Shown here piece by piece: positions 1,656 to 19,295 of a DNA stretch of 33,357 nucleotides; the first letter of the stretch is position 1, and each line of letters opens with the position of its first letter. The translations under genes and the position numbers were made by a program. This stretch comes from an uncultured Eubacteriales bacterium (GTDB lineage Bacteria > Bacillota > Clostridia > Christensenellales > Pumilibacteraceae): the NCBI GenBank assembly GCA_902783025.1, contig CACZPH010000043.1, positions 1-33,357 of the forward strand. Direction: 5' to 3'. Under the pieces are notes generated by a model that was not told the origin of the DNA, made no database searches, and worked only from the letters and a program-made list of their open reading frames with translations.

Positions 1656-3272
1656 ATGAAAGTAAGAGTTATCCAACCGCCGTATTCCGGCGACTTTGCC
1701 GACCTTGACAAGAACTTCGACGCGCAACTTAAGCTTCTGCGCGAGTGCGACGAACCTCTCGATCTTATAGCGCTGCCCGAATCGACGGATATTCCGGCGT
1801 TTACTCCGGACGTCAAAGTGTGGGAAGAAACGACCCGCCGCTTGGGCGAAATAATATCGCGCGAAGCCAAAGCCGCGGCGATTCGCTGCAACAGCATGGT
1901 GTCGTACAACATCACGACTTTCGTAGAGCATAATATGTGCTACAATACGACGATATTGCTTTCCCGGAAAGGCAAGGAACTGGGCAGATACTACAAGGAA
2001 CACCCCACGCCCGGCGAAATTGTTTCGCACCGTCAGACGCGCGGGTACGTATACGAGAGCGTGGAGCCCACGATAATCGAATACGAGGGAATAAGATTCG
2101 CTTTCCTTACCTGCTACGACTTTTATTTTTACGAGTATTTTTCGCGGCTTGCCAAGTACTATCCCGACGTGATAATCGGCTGTTCGCATCAGCGCACCGA
2201 TACGGTAGACGCGCTGGAGACGATGACCAAATTCGCCGCCTACAACACTAACGCGTATATCGTGCGCTCGTCGGTCACTCTGGGGGAAGGCAGCAAGGTG
2301 GGCGGCTGCTCTATGGTGGTTACTCCCGAGGGTAAAATTCTCAAGAATATGCTCAGCCGTCAAGGCGCTTTTACCGTCGAATTCGATCCACACGCCAAGT
2401 ATCTCAAGCCCGCCGGCTACAAGGGCGCCGTAATGCCCCACCACGAGTACACCGAAAAGGGCAGACGGCCGTGGAAATACCGCCCGGCAGGTCCGGCGCT
2501 CACCGTCTACGACGACGTTATGCCGTATCCGAGAGTTTGCGCGCACAGGGGCTTTAATACCGTCGCGCCCGAAAATTCTCTCGCCTCGTACGGACTGGCG
2601 GTAGGCATGGGAGCCGAAGAGATAGAATTCGACTTGTGGACGACCAAGGACGGTCAGCTCGTTTCGTGCCACGACCTCAACTTGGAGCGCGTGTCCGACG
2701 GCACGGGCAAAATCTGGGATTATACGTTAGACGAGCTCAGGAAATTCGACTTCGGCGCGAAGGTCGATCCGCATTTTAAGGGAATGAGGATAGCGACCTT
2801 TGAAGATATTCTCAAGAAATTCGCCTGCCACTGCATAATGAATATCCACGTCAAGATCTGGGATTTTTCCGAACTCGATCCCAAACTTGAGGAGATAGTC
2901 AGACTGATACGCAAGTACGATTGCGCGCGTTACGTATACTTTATGTCGTCCACGCCCGCCCGGCTCAAAGCGGCGCTCGAGTACGCGCCTGATATCTGCT
3001 GCTGCATGGGCGCCGGACAAGACAGATGGAAGATAGTCGACAACGCCATCGCCACGGGCTGTAAGAAAGTTCAGCTTTTCAAGCCGTATTTTAACCAAGA
3101 AATGATCGACAAAGCGCACGCGCACGGCATCAAATGCAACGTGTTCTGGTCTGACGATCCCGAGGAGACGGTTAAGTTCCTCGATATGGGCATAGACACA
3201 ATTCTTACCAACGATTATCTCAGTATCAAAAATACCGTCGACGAATACAAAAAGTCGCACGGTCTCGATTGA
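1656..3272 (+). CDS. Two-domain hydrolase: nitrilase-superfamily domain fused to glycerophosphodiester phosphodiesterase
   Basis: ATG 1656 is chosen because it has AAGGAG at 1644-1649; the open frame extends upstream without a ribosome-binding site. The resulting 538-residue protein has two enzymatic domains. Residues 1-270 form a carbon-nitrogen hydrolase domain whose catalytic triad is visible as E42 (in LPES), K114 (in YYKEHPTPGE) and C153 (in FLTCYDF). Residues about 293-538 form a GDPD TIM barrel with AHRG (H297, R298), APENS (E306), EFD (E324, D326) and CHD (H339), plus the late LTND motif. GDPD enzymes release glycerol-3-phosphate from glycerophosphodiesters; nitrilase-family proteins cleave amides. 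There is no signal peptide, so it acts in the cytoplasm. Its joint substrate is unknown; an amide-bearing lipid head group is one guess. The next gene overlaps its stop codon. Confidence 0.85.
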   Translation: MKVRVIQPPYSGDFADLDKNFDAQLKLLRECDEPLDLIALPESTDIPAFTPDVKVWEETTRRLGEIISREAKAAAIRCNSMVSYNITTFVEHNMCYNTTILLSRKGKELGRYYKEHPTPGEIVSHRQTRGYVYESVEPTIIEYEGIRFAFLTCYDFYFYEYFSRLAKYYPDVIIGCSHQRTDTVDALETMTKFAAYNTNAYIVRSSVTLGEGSKVGGCSMVVTPEGKILKNMLSRQGAFTVEFDPHAKYLKPAGYKGAVMPHHEYTEKGRRPWKYRPAGPALTVYDDVMPYPRVCAHRGFNTVAPENSLASYGLAVGMGAEEIEFDLWTTKDGQLVSCHDLNLERVSDGTGKIWDYTLDELRKFDFGAKVDPHFKGMRIATFEDILKKFACHCIMNIHVKIWDFSELDPKLEEIVRLIRKYDCARYVYFMSSTPARLKAALEYAPDICCCMGAGQDRWKIVDNAIATGCKKVQLFKPYFNQEMIDKAHAHGIKCNVFWSDDPEETVKFLDMGIDTILTNDYLSIKNTVDEYKKSHGLD

Positions 3273-9320: not shown

Positions 9321-10163
9321 TTACAGATATTTTTTGATAAACTCGACCGCTTTGACGATATCCTTTTCGGGATCGTCGCCGCACTCGCGCTCGATGGTAA
9401 GGAATCCGTCGTAGCCGATCTCCTTGAGCGCTTTGACGTAGTTTTCGAAGTCGACGTCGCCTTCGCCGAGCGGGGTTTCGAGATACGTGCCGCGCACGCC
9501 CTTAGCCGGCGGCTGACCTTCGACGTACTCGCCGTAAACTTCCGCCGCGGGCACGGGAACGAGGTTTTTGCCGTCCTTAAGGTGCGTATGAACGATGTAG
9601 TCCTTGAGCATATACACCGCTTCGACCGCGTCCTGGCGCGTAACCATCGTAAAGTTGGCGGGATCGAGGTTTACGCCGACGCCGCCTTTTGTCGCGGACA
9701 CGAAGCCGAGCAGAGTTTTCGCGTCTTCGGGGCCCGTCTCGATAGCCAGAGTCACGCCCTTGCTCATAGCGTATTTGCCGCACTCGGTGAGCGCGCGGAG
9801 CATAACGCCGTAGCGCGGGTTGGCGGGATCGGACGGAATAACGCCTATATGCGTCGTCACAACCTTAGCGCCGAACTCCACCGCAAGGTCGACGATAGCT
9901 TTCGTTTTCTCGACTCTTTCGGCGTTGTCGGACTCCTTTTGGAAGCCGTACCCGCCCATATCTCCGCACAGCGCGCTGACAACCAACCCGCAATCGGAGA
10001 GAAGTTTTTTGTAAAAGTCCTTTTGTTCGCTCGTCAGCGTCCAGGGCGAAAAAGCGCCTTTGGTCGCGTAGATCTGAACGCCGCTGAGTCCGAGCGCCGC
10101 GGCCTTGCGGATCGCGGTTTCGGTATCGGTCTTAAAGCAATCTGTAATTACGCCTATTTTCAT
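9321..10163 (-). CDS. Sugar phosphate isomerase/epimerase (xylose isomerase-like TIM barrel)
   Basis: This 280-residue protein of the AP-endonuclease-2/xylose isomerase-like superfamily (IolE/Hyi/tagatose-epimerase relatives) shows the expected metal-ligand strands. These are AIETGPE (Glu), GVNLDPAN (Asp), HTHLKD (His) and the final TIERE (Glu). Such enzymes isomerise, epimerise or dehydrate sugars and inosose using Mn or a similar metal. It is cytoplasmic. The AGGAG site overlaps the stop of the upstream Gfo/Idh gene (10 nt gap), so the two are co-transcribed and terminate at 9297. The pair resembles inositol and 3-keto-sugar catabolic modules. The exact substrate is unknown. Confidence 0.85.
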   Translation of the reverse strand: MKIGVITDCFKTDTETAIRKAAALGLSGVQIYATKGAFSPWTLTSEQKDFYKKLLSDCGLVVSALCGDMGGYGFQKESDNAERVEKTKAIVDLAVEFGAKVVTTHIGVIPSDPANPRYGVMLRALTECGKYAMSKGVTLAIETGPEDAKTLLGFVSATKGGVGVNLDPANFTMVTRQDAVEAVYMLKDYIVHTHLKDGKNLVPVPAAEVYGEYVEGQPPAKGVRGTYLETPLGEGDVDFENYVKALKEIGYDGFLTIERECGDDPEKDIVKAVEFIKKYL

Positions 10164-10173
10164 GACAAAACTC

Positions 10174-11232
10174 CTATTTCAAGATTATTTCTTTTCTTAT
10201 CGCCGCCGACTGATACAATTCGTCGAGCAGACGGGCGGATTCGAGAACGTTGTCGATGTTGCTGCGGTTTTTCTCGCGCGAAGCGATCGAGTCGATAAAG
10301 GCGCGGTCTTCCTTGAGATACATATTGGGAATATCGTACTGCGGTTTTTCGGTTTTGCGGGTGGTGCCGTCGAAAAACTCGTAAAGAGCGCAGTAGTCGA
10401 GGCGCGCGCCGCCCTTGTCGCCGAGGAAATCGATATACATTTCGTCCTTGTCGAGGTTTTGCGCCCACGCGCCGTTAAACGAAATGCTCGCCTTATCGGT
10501 GCGCACGTACCCGGTAATGAAGTCGTCGACGTCGTTAACGCCGTGCTCGATATCCGCGGTGTCTTCCGCCCACATATAGTCGTACTTGTAGTCCTTCATG
10601 TTCTTCGCCATTTCGCAGTAGGCGTCCGCGGTAACGGTATTAAGCTTTGCGCCGCCCAACACGTACAGGATAAGGTCGAGGAAATGCACGCCCCAGTCGA
10701 TGAGCACGCCGCCGCCCGACTGGGATTTGTCGGTAAACGGTCCGCCGAGTCCGGGAATGCAGCGGCACTTGCGGAATGAGCAGTAAACGTGGTAAATATT
10801 GCCGAACTTGCCCTCGGCGTTGAGCCGCGCGAGTTCCTCAACGGACTTGTGGTAGCGGTTGCAAACGCCTATCTGGAGCATTCTGCCGTACTTGTCGGCG
10901 GTCTCCGCCATTTCCTTGGAGAGCGCGTAGTTGACGGTGATGGGCTTTTCGCAAAAAACGTCCTTGCCCGCCTTGAGCGCGTCCATAGTAACGGTGTAGT
11001 GCGCATAGTTGGGCGTAAGTACGAAGACAGCCTGAACTTCCTTGTCGTTTAGCGCGATACGGTAGTCGGTGATGGCGTTTTCGACGTTGCGGTATTTTTC
11101 TTTTGCCTTGAGGGCTTTTTCTTCGATGAGGTCGCAGGCGTACTTGATCCTTACGTCCTCGAGCTTTTCGAGCGCGGGAAAATGCGATCCGTTGGCGTTC
11201 CTTCCGCAACCTATTACGGCGATAGTAGTCAT
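10174..11232 (-). CDS. Gfo/Idh/MocA-family NAD(P)-dependent oxidoreductase
   Basis: This 352-residue protein has an N-terminal Rossmann fold with GCGRNANGSHFP (about residues 8-19). The family signature CEKPI (about residue 95) contains the conserved Lys, and the second domain is of the oxidoreductase C-terminal type. The DWGVHFLDL segment near residue 183 has the Asp...His arrangement typical of active members. It oxidises or reduces a hydroxyl of a sugar, cyclitol or glycoside in the cytoplasm. It is first in a two-gene operon with the isomerase-like gene and has a strong promoter at 11337-11365. About 100 nt of leader contains an 11-bp inverted repeat. AGGAG precedes the ATG. Confidence 0.9.
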   Translation of the reverse strand: MTTIAVIGCGRNANGSHFPALEKLEDVRIKYACDLIEEKALKAKEKYRNVENAITDYRIALNDKEVQAVFVLTPNYAHYTVTMDALKAGKDVFCEKPITVNYALSKEMAETADKYGRMLQIGVCNRYHKSVEELARLNAEGKFGNIYHVYCSFRKCRCIPGLGGPFTDKSQSGGGVLIDWGVHFLDLILYVLGGAKLNTVTADAYCEMAKNMKDYKYDYMWAEDTADIEHGVNDVDDFITGYVRTDKASISFNGAWAQNLDKDEMYIDFLGDKGGARLDYCALYEFFDGTTRKTEKPQYDIPNMYLKEDRAFIDSIASREKNRSNIDNVLESARLLDELYQSAAIRKEIILK

Positions 11233-12597: not shown

Positions 12598-12629
12598 AAA
12601 AAAGACGACCTTCCCGGCCGTCTTTTTCG
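12598..12629. terminator. Bidirectional intrinsic terminator
   Basis: AAAGACG.CC and GG.CGTCTTT pair with one A/C mismatch around a TTCCC loop, with A-run and T-run flanks. It serves the OhrR gene on the plus strand and res on the minus strand. Confidence 0.75.
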
Positions 12630-12635
12630 GTGGTT

Positions 12636-14816
12636 TTACTTAAAGAAATCTTCGAGCAGCTTGTATTCGGTTTTGTCCTCGCTGAATTTGTGGAACATAC
12701 TTGTCGTAATATACAATTCTTTGTCGATGCCCGACTCGTCCAAAACGACGAATGCGCTATTGACTTTGTACTTTTCGGCGTATGCTTTGAGCGCGTTGAA
12801 TTTTTTCTCGGAAAACTCGTCGATATTTGCGTTTGTGCCTAAGCGGTTTTCGCCGCCTTTCGTTTCTATGATCCACAATTTACCCTTAACGCCCAAAATA
12901 TAATCCGGATAAAAAAGTTTTTGTTTACCGTAGTCGTTGGTGTACAGTATCGAGAAGTAATCGCTGCCTTTGTCGCCGTTTTTGTAAAACCAGTCGGAAT
13001 GCTTTTCGCACCATTTTTCAAATTCGAGTTCGACTTCGGACTTCCCTGCACGACTTAAAACGTATCCGTCGTACACGTTGCGTTTGCATTCTTTGAACGA
13101 TTCGGGCGCATAAATAATGACGTTTTCGCGCGGGAACACAAAAGAAGCGGTATTCTTTTGAGTTGTCGAAATCGTCGTCTGCACGGACGAGTACGAAGAC
13201 TCGCGGAAATCGTTTTTGAGCAGAGTGCGGTTGTTGATAACGAAAGGATAGACGTCGCGAGTAGATAGCGTAAGGAGTTTTCCGGTATATTTTTGCGTGC
13301 TGTCAAAAAGCCTGCGCAAAATTATTATCATACTGTCGTATTTTACGCCCGCCGCGTCGGCAATATCCGCAACGCATTGATGAAAAAGTCTTCCGTCGCT
13401 GTGCGTATTGAGTTCGCGGCTCAAATTGAGTTCGTGGACGTTTTCGGTATTGTCGGTGACCGTCATCACACCCTGTTGAGCGGAGTAGAGTATATCTTTG
13501 CTGAATTTATACCCGCCTTTTGCTTCAAGTGCGCTTTGGTTATGTTCCGCTTTTGCGCCCAAACCGTATTTTTTTACAAAGAACTTTGTCGCCGTTTCGA
13601 GAATCTGGACGGGATCGTTTTCGACAAACGAAACGGATTTTAATTCTTTCGTGAGTTTGAAATCGTAGAAATCCTTTTTTAAGAAAACTTTTTTTGCCTC
13701 AAATGCACCACTTTCGCGTTTAGCGTATTCGATAAACGCTCTGTCAAGCGTATATATGTAGCAATAGTCAAGAAATTGATTGCCGTAATGTTTCGCTTCG
13801 GGCATACGCCTTATGCGCCCTATCGTCTGTATCTCAAAGGTTTCGGACATATTGTCGCGCATTTTTACGAGGATTTGCGCGCGCGGGCAATCCCAACCGA
13901 GCGCGACGGCTTGCTTAATGATTATTGCAACGGGCAAAGCCGTAGGCGAATCAATTTGTTCGAGGTTTTCTTTTTGGTCGCTGAGCCATACCGCAAGGCG
14001 CTTGTTAAAGTATGTAATTCCTTTTTCTTCGAGAATCTTTTCGATTTTTGCTTGCTTGTCTTCCGACTTGTTCGGTATTTGAATTACGATAAGAGGGTTT
14101 ACTTTACTGCCGGCGTTTTTATATTCTTCGGCAAGCTTCTTTTGTTTGTCGAGCGCAAGAGAAAGTAAGTATTCTTCTTCGTTTTCGATCGTGGTATTTT
14201 GTGGGATTCCATCGTTGATATAAATCGCCTTTTTGATCAGCCCTTCGGCAATTACGTCTTCCTCTGGAATATCGATAAGCGTAGCGTTTCCGTAATTGAG
14301 CGGAGTAGCGGACGCGCGAATTATCTTGTCCGCCTTAAATAGCGCAATTATCTCGTTAGCTTTATACGTGTTGTTAAAGTGCTGTTCGTCAACGATAATA
14401 ATAAAGTGTAAGCCGTTTAGTTGCGCGGCTTTTATTCGATCAAGCAAGTTTTCGTGTTCGCTGTCCTGTATCGCGTTGTTTTTCTTGTTGGTAACCATTT
14501 CCCAGTTAATAAAAGCAACATCGTTTTCTTCAAAGCCCGCCGTCAAAACATCGGCGAGCAATTTTGTCTGCGCCGAGTGGATATACGTATCCATTTTTGC
14601 TTTCGACTGGTCTTCGAGATTGCCTTTTCCGGGCGTAAACCAAACGAAACAGGTCTGCGCATTTTCTTTGAGATACCTATCGATAAAGTGCGTAAGAATT
14701 ATCGTTTTGCCGCTGCCCGTGCAACTTTTCAAAACGATTTCTTTTTTGGGTTTTCTGCAAGCGGCATTTAAGTCCGCTATCGCTTGCATTTGAAAATTTT
14801 TAAGAGTCAGATTCAT
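12636..14816 (-). CDS. res: Type III restriction enzyme, Res (helicase-nuclease) subunit
   Basis: This 726-residue protein is an SF2 DEAD-like helicase joined to a C-terminal nuclease. It shows Walker A CTGSGKT (32-38), Walker B DEQH (143-146), SATP near 168-171 and motif VI QTIGRIRR. Near the C-terminus is a PD-(D/E)xK nuclease core with D638 (in FYPDY), E651 and K653 (in IETKGG). It is shorter than the EcoP15I-type Res (about 970 residues), so linker or accessory regions are reduced. With Mod it would cleave DNA after ATP-driven translocation. The ATG overlaps the end of the upstream membrane-protein gene by 17 nt and has GGAGAAA nearby. Codon style matches the host chromosome, unlike the two genes upstream. 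Confidence 0.88.
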   Translation of the reverse strand: MNLTLKNFQMQAIADLNAACRKPKKEIVLKSCTGSGKTIILTHFIDRYLKENAQTCFVWFTPGKGNLEDQSKAKMDTYIHSAQTKLLADVLTAGFEENDVAFINWEMVTNKKNNAIQDSEHENLLDRIKAAQLNGLHFIIIVDEQHFNNTYKANEIIALFKADKIIRASATPLNYGNATLIDIPEEDVIAEGLIKKAIYINDGIPQNTTIENEEEYLLSLALDKQKKLAEEYKNAGSKVNPLIVIQIPNKSEDKQAKIEKILEEKGITYFNKRLAVWLSDQKENLEQIDSPTALPVAIIIKQAVALGWDCPRAQILVKMRDNMSETFEIQTIGRIRRMPEAKHYGNQFLDYCYIYTLDRAFIEYAKRESGAFEAKKVFLKKDFYDFKLTKELKSVSFVENDPVQILETATKFFVKKYGLGAKAEHNQSALEAKGGYKFSKDILYSAQQGVMTVTDNTENVHELNLSRELNTHSDGRLFHQCVADIADAAGVKYDSMIIILRRLFDSTQKYTGKLLTLSTRDVYPFVINNRTLLKNDFRESSYSSVQTTISTTQKNTASFVFPRENVIIYAPESFKECKRNVYDGYVLSRAGKSEVELEFEKWCEKHSDWFYKNGDKGSDYFSILYTNDYGKQKLFYPDYILGVKGKLWIIETKGGENRLGTNANIDEFSEKKFNALKAYAEKYKVNSAFVVLDESGIDKELYITTSMFHKFSEDKTEYKLLEDFFK

Positions 14817-15684
14817 CGGTTTTCTCCATCATTTTTTCAATTTGGTTATATTTTTCTATTGCTTCTTCTCTTATTTGTTGGTTTGATTTTATTATATTTT
14901 TCTTTTTATTTTCACATATTATTTCTTGTTCAATCAGCGCAATTCTCATTGTTTGATTCAATTGCTCGTTATTCATTTTTATCTGTGAAGCAAAAAGTAT
15001 TTTCCTTAAGATAGGATCAACAACATCTTGGAAGATAGTAAATAGAATATGTGAAATTAGATAGATATTGAAAATCACAATAATTTTTAAAAATACTGAT
15101 ATATCATTACTAATTAAGCATAACGGAGTTGTGTAGACCAAGCATCCTAATGAGATGATAAAAAGAAAAATAATGATTCCAAAATTTATGTTATGCTTAT
15201 AGTAAGATAACGACTTTTCAATATCCATAATTCTATCAAAACCAATACCATCGGAATTGGGTTTATTGTCAATATATTTTGAAACAACAACATGCCATAT
15301 TACAAAAAGAGAGATAGCAACTGCAAATATTGTCCACTCAATTTCAATTAGTTTTATTGTTGAAGATATCGGCAATAAAGGAGCTTGTCCAATTGCGGCG
15401 GAAGCAGCAATGATAAGTAAAATAATTGTATAAGTTATTAGTTTTGCACCTGTAAATATTGAGTTGCGTTTAACTAGATAAATGATATAACTTATTAGAT
15501 TTACAACTCCAAAAAATACGCTGATTATTATTGATACTATGGAAGCATTAAGAGCATCAATAAGTCCTTGTTTGTAAAAACCGCTTAAAGCAAACACACC
15601 GAGAAGAAAGCCTAAAAATGACGAAATTAAGAACACAAAAATGTACTTTAATAAAGTTTTTATAATTTTTTTTCTTGTCTGCAT
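14800..15684 (-). CDS. Unrecognised six-TM membrane protein inside the type III R-M operon
   Basis: I do not recognise this 294-residue family. Hydrophobic segments lie at about residues 14-34, 47-71, 82-104, 117-137, 166-191 and 197-219. A polar, helical and probably coiled-coil tail follows at 229-294, rich in Gln, Glu, Asn and Lys (QIKMNNEQLNQTM.., NQIEKMMEK). The first residues (TRKKIIK) suggest a cytoplasmic N-terminus and, with six segments, a cytoplasmic tail. Composition is markedly AT-richer than mod ends and res. It is coupled to res by a 17-nt overlap and has GGAGAAG about 10 nt before the ATG. Position suggests an accessory or effector function of the R-M locus; no catalytic motif is visible. 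Confidence 0.75.
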   Translation of the reverse strand: MQTRKKIIKTLLKYIFVFLISSFLGFLLGVFALSGFYKQGLIDALNASIVSIIISVFFGVVNLISYIIYLVKRNSIFTGAKLITYTIILLIIAASAAIGQAPLLPISSTIKLIEIEWTIFAVAISLFVIWHVVVSKYIDNKPNSDGIGFDRIMDIEKSLSYYKHNINFGIIIFLFIISLGCLVYTTPLCLISNDISVFLKIIVIFNIYLISHILFTIFQDVVDPILRKILFASQIKMNNEQLNQTMRIALIEQEIICENKKKNIIKSNQQIREEAIEKYNQIEKMMEKTDESDS

Positions 15685-15713
15685 GTTTTATTTTACTTCT
15701 CCATGTCCTATTT

Positions 15714-16700
15714 TTAGTTGGATTCTTCTTCCATTTCTTCGAGCCTATTTTTTTCTAAGAGATCAACGTATGATTTTATTTTAGTTGCTTTATCTATCAT
15801 CTTTGCAGGATAAGTGTAATTTAATATGTTGGTTGGTTGCGAAAAGACTATTCTATCAGTCTTTTCTACAACGTGTACAAAAAATTTAAGTGTACCGCTC
15901 GTGTATATGCCATGGATATTAACTGCAATATAATTTAGGGAAATAAAGATAGTATCTTTATCTTTGCAGATATCGGATATAAATTTTTCTTTTTCTTGAC
16001 TATTACTTATACTTGGGCTTGGAAACATTAAGAATTTACCAACACTATAAGTGTCTTTTGCAATCAAACTTAATTCGCCGGATTCCCCACGAGCTTTGTT
16101 GTTTATAAAAACATAGTCTTTTTCGAATATTGTTTTTTCTTTATTAGGTTGAGTGTTTATGTTTATAGATGTGAAACACACATCTTTTAAACTCGCTGTT
16201 TCTGAACAATTAAACACAAATGTTAGGTATACACCGTTAGTAAACCGTGCCGTAAATTCTTTATCGGAATACTCTTTTATGCTTTCATTGTATGTCATAT
16301 AGTATCTTAGGCAGGCTGAAGAGTTTTCCGTAATACATACATTGTCAACACTGGTTATTATTGGATCAAGTTTCTTTAAAATTATATTTGGAGCAGTACG
16401 GATTATTAAATCTTGCTTTCTATACTCTTTTTCTTCTTCTTGATACAATCTAGTTTGGCTTTGATTCTCTTCAAGGATTCGTTTATTATCTTTAGCAAGT
16501 TTATCAGCGGTTTCCTTGTGCCTTTCGGCTTGTATATACACCATTACGCCCAAAAATATTGTTGCTGCAGAACTTGCTGTAGAAAGAGATAGTGTCAACC
16601 AATCTTCTTGGCTAAAACTTATACCGCAAATAATAGCAAAGAGTGTAAAAACAATTAGCGGTATTAAAAGAAGTAAAAACAAAAAGTAAGCTTTCTTCAT
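15714..16700 (-). CDS. Unrecognised membrane-anchored protein with coiled coil and soluble domain, inside the R-M operon
   Basis: This 328-residue protein has two N-terminal hydrophobic segments (about 5-27 and 34-56) forming a membrane hairpin. A charged, probably coiled-coil stretch follows (about 57-95), then a beta-rich soluble domain (about 96-300) with several cysteines. A short acidic helix (NRLEEMEEES) ends the protein. The TM hairpin plus linker plus cytoplasmic domain layout is common in uncharacterised proteins of mobile and defence loci. The ATG lies 1 nt after the mod stop with AGGGGG as ribosome-binding site, so it is translationally coupled to mod. It is AT-rich like its neighbour at 14800, suggesting both were gained as a cassette. 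No enzymatic motif was found. Confidence 0.75.
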   Translation of the reverse strand: MKKAYFLFLLLLIPLIVFTLFAIICGISFSQEDWLTLSLSTASSAATIFLGVMVYIQAERHKETADKLAKDNKRILEENQSQTRLYQEEEKEYRKQDLIIRTAPNIILKKLDPIITSVDNVCITENSSACLRYYMTYNESIKEYSDKEFTARFTNGVYLTFVFNCSETASLKDVCFTSININTQPNKEKTIFEKDYVFINNKARGESGELSLIAKDTYSVGKFLMFPSPSISNSQEKEKFISDICKDKDTIFISLNYIAVNIHGIYTSGTLKFFVHVVEKTDRIVFSQPTNILNYTYPAKMIDKATKIKSYVDLLEKNRLEEMEEESN

Positions 16701-16701
16701 A

Positions 16702-18351
16702 TTACCCCCTTAGTTCGCCGTAGTAGTAGTCGGGAATGACGTTGATATTTACGTTGTGCGAAGTAAGCTTGTCTTCGGTTTCGGGAGTCACGAAAACGTC
16801 GTGCCCTACGTAAACGGCTTTGTAAGCAGTTTCGCCGTTTATCGAATCGGCAAAGGTTTTTAGCTCGTCGTCCGTAAGACAAATAGCAACCTTATTATTA
16901 CCGGCAAAGTCAAGACCGTTTTCAAGTTCGACAAGTTCTTTGATATGTAAGAGAAGCTTGTCCGCATACTCGTAATATAATTGCTCCGAGATAGGAACAA
17001 AGTCAACCTTGTAGTATTTCAGGCTCGCCTTATAGTCTTCTTTGGCAATTACGCGCTTTATGCGCTCATACGTTACGTCACGGCAGATATTATTTTCATT
17101 ATTCGTGCAAAGAATAAATTTACGCTTACCGCCGTCTTCCGCGTTTAATTTCATAACAGCGTGTCCTGTTGTTCCACTACCAGCAAAAAAGTCTAGAACA
17201 ATAGAACAATTACAATGCTTTATCAAAAACTGTATTAGTTCTACAGGTTTAGGATTTTGAAACAAGTCTTTAGTCCCAAAAACTTCTGTTAATTGTTTTG
17301 TCGCATCGCCTGTTTCTGCCAAATCATATATAATACTGCGACTTTTTATAAGTTTTCCTTTTAACTCGTTGAAATACACTTTTTCATAAGGAATCCAAGA
17401 ATTTTTCTTTTTATCAAAGCTCCAATATATATTGTTTTGTTTTATTATTTCCGTCATTTTTTGTAAACCAACGCGCCAACGGCCATCTTTTCCATCAGGA
17501 GCTTTCGGAAAATAGTCGCTTTTGTCAGGAGCTTTGATTGAAAAATACATAGAAGGTCGATCTTCTTTATGTGCAGAGCTTCCCCATTTTTCTAGTTTAA
17601 CAAGAGTATAGTTTCCATAATTGTCTTTTAGCTTAAAATCTTCTATTTTAGCTTCTTCTTGGAAATTTAACCACTTAAAAGCAAAAGCTTTTCGGTAACA
17701 CAGTATATATTCATGTTCAGTAACAAAAAACTCGTCTGTTTGTCCACCGCCAGCTTTTTTACGCCATATCATTGTACCTATATAATTATTATCATTAAAA
17801 ACATTATCACAAAGTATTTTCAACTGTGCTTGCTCATTATTGTCAATGGAAATAAAAATTACCCCTTTATCAGAAAGCAATCTATGGGCAATTTTAAGTC
17901 GTTCTGACATAAACGATAACCATTTGCTATGCTTGAATTTATCTTCACTGTCGACAAAAGCATCGTCATATACAAAGTCTTTATTACCTGTATTATACGG
18001 AGGATCTATGTAAATAAGGTCAATTTTGCCTTTGTGTGTTTTTTCGAGGAGTTTTAGGCTCGCCAAATTATCCCCTTCGATAAGAAAGTTTTGCGTGCCG
18101 CCGTTGTCGATTTTAAGATCTTCGTTTTCGACCAAGACCGGAACGTTCTTTTCGAGTAACTCGTCGACTGCCTCACGGTGTTCTTCGAAAACAAGCCCGT
18201 ATTTTTTGCCGTTTATATCTTTTTCGATATCGGACAAATAGACGAGTAACCTATCCGTGTTATCGTCGTGTTTTTCGATTAGCGTTTTGCGTATCTCTTC
18301 GATTTCGCTAAGCAGTTTTTCTCTCTTTTCTTTGGATACGTTAGTCGACAT
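16702..18351 (-). CDS. mod: Type III DNA methyltransferase, Mod subunit
   Basis: This 549-residue adenine-N6 (beta-class) methyltransferase has the catalytic DPPY at 116-119 (in YIDPPYNTG) preceding the SAM-binding FAGSG at 389-393 (in LDFFAGSGTTGH). The region between them holds the target-recognition domain. NFLIEGDNLASL at about 88-99 is typical of type III Mod and related enzymes. It methylates the recognition site and supplies specificity to Res. DNA encoding the recognition domain (about 17160-17990) is AT-rich, while both ends of the gene match host codon style, a mosaic pattern. It has its own promoter and GAGGT ribosome-binding site and leads a four-gene operon ending with res. Confidence 0.92.
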   Translation of the reverse strand: MSTNVSKEKREKLLSEIEEIRKTLIEKHDDNTDRLLVYLSDIEKDINGKKYGLVFEEHREAVDELLEKNVPVLVENEDLKIDNGGTQNFLIEGDNLASLKLLEKTHKGKIDLIYIDPPYNTGNKDFVYDDAFVDSEDKFKHSKWLSFMSERLKIAHRLLSDKGVIFISIDNNEQAQLKILCDNVFNDNNYIGTMIWRKKAGGGQTDEFFVTEHEYILCYRKAFAFKWLNFQEEAKIEDFKLKDNYGNYTLVKLEKWGSSAHKEDRPSMYFSIKAPDKSDYFPKAPDGKDGRWRVGLQKMTEIIKQNNIYWSFDKKKNSWIPYEKVYFNELKGKLIKSRSIIYDLAETGDATKQLTEVFGTKDLFQNPKPVELIQFLIKHCNCSIVLDFFAGSGTTGHAVMKLNAEDGGKRKFILCTNNENNICRDVTYERIKRVIAKEDYKASLKYYKVDFVPISEQLYYEYADKLLLHIKELVELENGLDFAGNNKVAICLTDDELKTFADSINGETAYKAVYVGHDVFVTPETEDKLTSHNVNINVIPDYYYGELRG

Positions 18352-18379
18352 AAATACCTCTGATGTTTTAGTTTATTCT

Positions 18380-18408
18380 ATTATACATACTTTTGCCGGG
18401 AAAAGCAA
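18380..18408 (-). promoter_or_regulatory. Promoter of the type III R-M operon
   Basis: On the minus strand TTGCTT, a 17-nt spacer and TATAAT; the start site is about 20 nt upstream of the mod ATG. No terminator is evident between the end of the AraC gene (18453) and this promoter, so some read-through from araC is possible. Confidence 0.7.
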
Positions 18409-18452
18409 GGCAAAAGGCGGAATATTTGCCGGCGTGTACCGTTTATGGGCGG

Positions 18453-19295
18453 TCAGGATTTCCCGTTACGGTACTCGGTGGGGGAGACGCCGAGGGATTT
18501 TTTGAACAGGGCGGAGAAGTGGTGCGCGTCGGAGAAGTTAAGGCGGGCGGCGATAACGCTTATCGAGTCGGACGAGAAGCGGAGCATGATCATTGCGATG
18601 CGGATCTTGGATTGGATGATATACTGGTGCGGAGTTATGCCGTAGGTGGCGCGGAAAGTGCGGATCACGTGCTCTTGAGAGAAGAAAAACTGCCGCGCAA
18701 GGTCGGCGATCGAGATGTCGTCCATGATATGGCAGTCGATATACAGCCGGATCTGTTCGGGCGGGGTGGCGATCGGCGCGCCCGTCGCGGCGTAAGCGGT
18801 CAAAAACTGCACCGCCTCGAGAAAAGTGCGTGCGGTCAGGTTTTCGTACTCGGTTTTCGTTTTCGCGCCCGCAGCGGCAAACCACTCGTCAAAAAATTTC
18901 TCGGTATTCGCGCCGCGGAAAACGACGCAGTCGTCCACGCCGTACGCGCTCATTATATCCCGCGACAGCTTGCCCTTAAAGTTTATCCACACGCGGGCGA
19001 AATCGTTGTCGGGGTTGGAGTAGTAGATCTGGTTTGCGCCCTCGCGGACGAGGAAGGTGTCGCCTTTTTGGACCGTAAAAATTTTGCCGTCCGAAATGAT
19101 TACGCCGCCGCCCGAGCGCACGTACTGCATACACGAAAAAGGCGAGTTCATGCGCAGAATGTAGCAGGGCATATCCGTCTCGGTGTAGCCGTACAGCGTT
19201 ATCTCAAAGGGGTTGCCTTTTGTGTCGAAAGGCGGCTTGATGATCTTTGCGCCGACGGGCGTTTCGAGATTGATGACCTGGAATTTGTTGTCCAT
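18453..19295 (-). CDS. AraC-family transcriptional regulator
   Basis: This 280-residue protein has an N-terminal cupin-type ligand domain (about 40-110, with GDTFLVREG). The C-terminal AraC domain (about 180-278) contains two HTH units. The first reads ISIADLARQFFFSQEHVIRTF. The second reads ISVIAARLNFSDAHHFSALF, followed by GVSPTEYR. It is divergent from the mutarotase-lactonase-dehydratase-SDR operon beginning at 19454, about 160 bp away. It is the probable activator of that operon, responding to a sugar or sugar acid. Promoter at 19315-19343; AAAGGAG precedes the ATG. Confidence 0.9.
   Translation of the reverse strand: MDNKFQVINLETPVGAKIIKPPFDTKGNPFEITLYGYTETDMPCYILRMNSPFSCMQYVRSGGGVIISDGKIFTVQKGDTFLVREGANQIYYSNPDNDFARVWINFKGKLSRDIMSAYGVDDCVVFRGANTEKFFDEWFAAAGAKTKTEYENLTARTFLEAVQFLTAYAATGAPIATPPEQIRLYIDCHIMDDISIADLARQFFFSQEHVIRTFRATYGITPHQYIIQSKIRIAMIMLRFSSDSISVIAARLNFSDAHHFSALFKKSLGVSPTEYRNGKS

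Follow-up and report, generated by a model that had tools for sequence, protein, structure and literature searches.

Exchange of a low-GC recognition domain has already been published for type III DNA methyltransferases, and the locus described here is a further case. In the modA genes of Neisseria and Haemophilus influenzae, the recognition domain was acquired en bloc from other species, according to excerpts of Gawthorne et al. 2012 (PMC3311624), and the GC content of the modA12 domain is 28%, compared with 40% in either flank. Passages of a second paper (PMC3983042, citing Furuta and Kobayashi 2012) describe type III domains that move between non-orthologous genes by recombining at conserved motifs. 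Segmentally variable genes, in which a variable segment lies between conserved parts, have DNA methyltransferases as a lead example in the excerpts of a third (PMC387263). Our mod gene resembles modA, as portrayed in the same excerpts (PMC3311624), in that conserved 5' and 3' parts surround a variable recognition domain. However, modA is presented there as a set of alleles of a single gene, in pathogens that are naturally transformable, and repeat tracts and uptake sequences are part of the picture, whereas our comparison crosses phyla, many loci have their borders at two motifs, and we found no repeat tract. As for segmentally variable genes, the excerpts of PMC387263 report that variable and conserved segments do not in general differ in GC (codon usage is given as biased, data not shown), whereas the difference in composition is strong here and spans conserved residues too. 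In the open-licence literature, at the level of titles and abstract openings, we found no report of a segment that keeps both its borders and a composition of its own across phyla, which does not prove absence; what our analysis adds is the sharing of borders and a weak dependence on host composition.

The window, i.e. the whole stretch of 33,357 nucleotides that was analysed, is a contig of an uncultured Eubacteriales bacterium. It harbours on its minus strand a mod gene for a type III DNA methyltransferase of 549 residues (16702-18351), which matches the PADLOC model MTase_III PDLC03642 (E 1.1e-131) and Pfam PF01555 (E 2.5e-40). Mod is of the same class as the EcoP15I-type Mod (PDB 4zcf, E 1.4e-38) and the Mods 6k0w (E 2.6e-51) and 7dsu (E 1e-44), as compared by sequence only. 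DPPY occupies aa 116-119 (17995-18006) and FAGSG aa 389-393 (17173-17187); we take them to be motifs IV and I, respectively. Mod is a methyltransferase of the class in which DPPY precedes, and FxGxG follows, the recognition domain. Several relatives align to it only at aa 1-224/229 and 363/365-549, and because their matches split around the intervening stretch we place the variable recognition domain near aa 225-362 (17266-17679), where relatives are 10-61% identical to Mod. The operon continues on the same strand with two AT-rich genes that we call membrane-type from hydropathy, gene 1 (15714-16700; 328 aa, one TM-like stretch) and gene 2 (14800-15684; 294 aa, about six TM-like stretches), neither of which matched a Pfam or PADLOC family, and then with res, encoding the restriction subunit of 726 residues (12636-14816; Pfam ResIII, E 9.3e-16; PADLOC REase_III).

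The composition of mod breaks twice. Its N-terminal part (aa 1-119, 17995-18351, ending with DPPY) and C-terminal part (aa 389-549, 16705-17187, beginning with FAGSG) use near-host codons, and total GC runs 0.412, 0.317 and 0.433 over aa 1-119, 120-388 and 389-549. The observed/expected ratio of CpG is 2.11, 0.96 and 1.77 in the same order, to be compared with 0.97 and 0.83 in membrane-type genes 1 and 2 and 1.92 in res. We calculated the expected GC3 with the amino acids held fixed and the codon usage of 7,795 flanking codons as host baseline. The middle has a GC3 of 0.205 against 0.573 expected (z -12.3), the N-terminal part 0.492 against 0.558 (z -1.5), the C-terminal part 0.475 against 0.577 (z -2.7), and res, which is closer to the host, 0.506 against 0.577 (z -3.9). 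The membrane-type genes resemble the middle (z -12.4 and -12.2), with GC3 of about 0.249-0.26 for gene 1 and 0.21-0.23 for gene 2, against about 0.506-0.52 for res. A two-break fit places the AT-rich block at aa 103 (98-121) to aa 402 (395-426), i.e. 17146-18045 on the minus strand, with a gain of 28.9 compared with at most 12.5 across 100 synonymous shuffles. The preliminary description, which reported an AT-rich middle at 17160-17990 between CpG-rich, host-like ends and likened it to the membrane cassette, is thus borne out by these values. It had also equated the AT-rich segment with the recognition domain and considered the catalytic core as kept, and both statements hold in part. The block does contain the domain but is wider: aa 120-224 are better conserved than aa 225-362 yet as AT-rich (GC3 0.208 versus 0.206), so that part of the catalytic core lies within it.

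The same pattern recurs among relatives, which are the best 80 of 344 loci retrieved with peptide patterns and come mostly from MAG contigs whose labels are possibly wrong. In 78 of these 80 genome-contig loci (L061, which is split, and L103, which is truncated, being left out) the GC3 of the middle minus that of the ends averages -0.162, with 51 loci below -0.10 and none above +0.10. The corrected comparison took flanking genes as baseline and comprised 62 loci, 61 relatives and the window, each with at least 800 flanking codons; it left out L003, L004 and L007 (same ORFs as L033, L048 and L066), L103, L061, L069, L104, the remaining genome-search loci with short flanks, and any locus with fewer than 800 flanking codons. 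After correction, 59 of the 62 loci have a middle richer in AT than the ends (Wilcoxon p 1.6e-11), including all 42 with a host GC3 above 0.4; the three exceptions have a host GC3 of 0.18-0.24. The slope on host GC3 is 0.67 for the N end, 0.66 for the C end and 0.21 for the middle (bootstrap interval of the ends-minus-middle difference, 0.29-0.59). Two reduced sets show the well in 30/33 and 24/26 loci, with slopes of 0.78-0.91 for the ends versus 0.30-0.39 for the middle.

The walls of this well are shared as well. Over the 35 loci with host GC3 above 0.45, the mean GC3 deficit is -0.25 to -0.34 inside the block and +0.01 to -0.13 outside, apart from the first ten residues (-0.19), and the walls stand at aa 111-130 and 381-400, i.e. 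at DPPY and FAGSG. Taken singly, 23 of the 35 exceed the shuffle maximum of the window, a per-locus threshold of 12.5 derived from shuffles of the window's mod only, and their median breaks are at aa 120 and 388. The same dip (middle minus ends below -0.10) appeared in 0 of 52 res genes and in just 2 of 178 other ORFs of at least 400 residues, which rules out a compositional ramp common to long genes. To gauge generality, we turned to 53 further loci, of which L008 and L009 belong to the main alignment too; in 31 the motif pair and the ends were usable. Thirteen of these come from the order of the window and have a middle that is on average 0.145 below the ends (nine below -0.10). In the other 18, from the phylum of L106's genome, the average drop is 0.197 (16 below -0.10), and no value among the 31 exceeds +0.10.

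Selection might account for such a regular well if AT-ending codons between the motifs were favoured in any host, for reasons of translation pace, mRNA structure or low expression. The same-bordered well in most relatives, the 25 of 31 further Mod-like genes below -0.10 and a depth that, over the 35 loci, is similar across conserved and variable residues all speak for it. On the other hand, L110 and L072 have middles that are 73% identical, yet that of L110 is as GC-rich as its ends (GC3 0.62 and 0.61, respectively) and that of L072 is AT-rich (0.24); AT-ending codons are therefore not required. L102 and L005 have no clear well either. Three plasmid Mods from GC-rich hosts gave mixed GC3 values for the N, middle and C parts (L129, 0.62/0.47/0.56; L128, 0.74/0.67/0.67; L130, 0.62/0.79/0.68, the middle thus exceeding both ends), and one from an Enterococcus faecium plasmid gave 0.33/0.21/0.32. 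As selection does not predict the conflicting trees described below either, we regard this explanation as improbable.

Two further observations were made in passing. L157 and L158, Mod-like proteins of more than 1,000 residues, show a deep dip between the motifs (0.71/0.28/0.68 and 0.58/0.38/0.61). In the HsdS region (L161-L190), the mid-locus ORF, taken by position, has a GC3 below that of its neighbours in 20 of the 27 usable loci out of 30, with means of 0.31 versus 0.37, which is much weaker than the Mod pattern.

The ends and the middle of Mod have different closest relatives. The ends pair with those of L033, from the Clostridiales MAG RUG11243 (L003 is on the same contig). Identity to the L033 Mod is 78% over aa 1-64, 95% over aa 65-119 and 63% over aa 120-224, then 19% in the recognition domain (aa 225-362) and 35% over aa 363-388, and again 100% over aa 389-437 and 78% over aa 438-549; the Res proteins are 77% identical. 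In contrast, the recognition domain is 47-53% identical to those of six loci labelled Bacteroidota (L070, L082, L090), Nitrospirota (L091), Myxococcota (L106) and Spirochaetota (L032), which, except for L032, are only 16-36% identical to Mod at aa 1-64 and 438-549. In a 34-row tree of the ends, where the two are 93% identical, the window and L033 form a pair with support 100/100. The corresponding tree of the middle groups the window with the six middle-partners (93/99 for the seven); the position of the window inside this group is weak (inner fork 83/47), and no starred set contained it. A 78-row tree of the middle places it with the same six partners (SH-aLRT 100). For the ends, AU tests rejected the window grouped with the six middle-partners (p-AU 7.6e-54) or with L032 alone (3.6e-6), and for the middle the window with L033 (0.002), p-values that are descriptive since the groups were chosen once the identity table was known.

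Across the family, phylum labels change 12 times on a quick 78-row tree of the ends versus 24.9 times when shuffled, and 21 versus 24.6 times on that of the middle, where the labels retain some signal, a value as low as 21 occurring in 1 of 200 shuffles. Middles (aa 181-388) are more alike than ends in 34 of the 3,081 pairs formed by 79 rows, and of the 1,594 pairs whose ends share 70% identity or more, 1,525 have middles below 30%. We fitted breaks in DNA identity on seven chosen pairs. They fell at aa 103/436 for L006-L009 and at aa 104/428 for L035-L108, pairs whose middles are alike and whose ends are not. Three pairs had a left break near aa 38-46 and a right one at aa 428-438, and for the remaining two the fit gave no inner block; five of the seven thus show no break at the N-side motif, a point against the exchange reading.

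At the DNA level, the window aligns with L033 by blastn over 16702-17198 (77.9% identity), 17806-18345 (77.8%) and res (12679-14804), all aligned stretches being 74-78% identical, and nothing aligned over the membrane-type genes or over the tract on the minus strand at 17199-17805, whose flanks are both at 78%. Divergence from L033, the nearest relative by its ends, is thus not even along mod and, with the discordant ancestries of ends and middle, agrees with the proposal of the preliminary description that the recognition domain was exchanged by recombination. The breaks in similarity to L033 lie near aa 183 and 385, only the right one near a motif, unlike those in composition (aa 98-121 and 395-426), which are both at or near conserved motifs. 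On the C side the two kinds of breaks nearly coincide (17146 for composition, 17198 for similarity to L033), whereas on the N side they differ (18045 and 17806), and aa 120-180 are nearest to L033 (82%) though AT-rich. Because the L033 break at 17806 falls inside the composition block, more than one exchange has likely occurred in the history of mod, a single one being insufficient. The simplest reading would be an older import bordered at the motifs and common to the L033 lineage, followed by replacement of the inner part in the lineage of either the window or L033. As for the closest middle, it belongs to L103 (61% in the recognition domain), whose contig has 24% GC and is labelled Phocaeicola, probably through a binning error. 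In this stretch of L103 (1110-3407), the Mod lacks the N-terminal part and a putative transposase ORF comes directly before it.

The polarity of the exchange might also be reversed, the whole operon having been imported as AT-rich DNA and the mod ends and res replaced or ameliorated later. The ends and res are indeed slightly under host expectation, by the z-scores given above, and the membrane-type genes are AT-rich too. Nevertheless, amelioration alone cannot spare exactly the inter-motif stretch, replacement takes several events for both ends and res versus one for the middle, and the ends group with Clostridia, the middle with other phyla. We therefore consider this scenario somewhat less probable still than selection on codons. 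That no exchange took place at all, and that AT-richness is mimicked by amino-acid composition, by chance or by a fast-evolving recognition domain, is scarcely credible, for although recognition domains do evolve quickly and the amino acids of the middle are different, the expected GC3 is alike for all parts (0.56-0.58) and the synonymous shuffles never match the observed break, which rules out amino-acid composition and chance as causes, the conserved aa 120-224 are as AT-rich as the variable domain, and the dip is all but confined to mod in the comparison with res and other long ORFs.

It is thus very probable that the window holds a type III operon with a recombinant Mod, in which the ends and res belong to one lineage, shared with L033, and the block comes from another Mod. 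The donor would most likely have resided in an AT-rich bacterium, and the block may have entered by recombination at conserved DNA around the invariant motifs DPPY and FAGSG. It would have brought in a new recognition domain and, next to it, a matching portion of the catalytic core, while leaving the C-terminal part and Res in place. The strands of motif IV and motif I adjoin in the catalytic sheet of this enzyme class, so a block bounded by the two motifs would sit in the fold as a closed insert. Given the role of the domain in the family, the recombinant Mod should remain an active methylase with another target, and Res, whose target is read through Mod, should change with it; the change of methylation specificity suggested in the preliminary description would be of this kind. 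It is tempting to speculate further that the stretch from motif IV to motif I is a mobile unit, swapped as a block across phyla with the same borders out of a common AT-rich pool, with a GC3 of about 0.24 largely whatever the host while the ends follow the host. Such a pool would account for GC3 bottoming out near 0.24 and for AT-rich hosts having a weak well or none. We put this broader reading forward tentatively, at a little short of an even chance.

If it is true, one gene has two evolutionary careers, as a resident frame and as a roaming insert in which a portion of the catalytic core travels with the recognition domain. An AT-rich pool, if real, would mean that defence specificity is traded across phyla faster than the enzymes that carry it, and its home becomes testable, AT-rich Firmicutes, plasmids or phages being candidates. 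The sharp-walled footprint at synonymous sites would make exchanged recognition segments detectable from a single genome and would be usable in uncultured bacteria without close alleles.

Searches for the source of the block covered several compartments. Among the best 80 of 344 genome loci there was no near-identical donor, the best relatives being 59-62% identical, and all matches in 174 phage records and in 796 plasmid records were below 60% identity; eight relatives on viral contigs are outside the analysed set. A search of the window's own genome (assembly 88.7% complete, E up to 1) for a spare cassette or second mod retrieved only this mod and one match of 24% identity with E 0.02. Tandem Repeats Finder reported no phase-variation repeat tract over 12600-18500, its four rows having about two copies each.

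Finally, the organization of the loci deserves mention. In 64 of 75 relatives res lies less than 200 nt from mod, whereas two genes separate them in the window. Both are rare in the order: among its 396 genomes, gene 1 was found in its own genome and one other, and gene 2 in its own, with weak matches (23-28% identity) in two more. It seems that the junction between mod and res accommodates AT-rich accessory genes. It holds the two membrane-type genes in the window (14800-16700), in L033 (10612-12346) a DUF2971 protein along with a gene that resembles membrane-type gene 1 over a short stretch, and an FRG-domain protein in L067 (3142-4329) and L071 (7278-8435), of which L068 (4955-6103) has a near copy. 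In L061 the Mod is split, and the last part of its methylase domain (Pfam PF01555) stands at the start of the next ORF (10144-10686). In L091, an IS200-like transposase gene (2763-3233; Pfam Y1_Tnp, E 4e-9) sits between mod and res.
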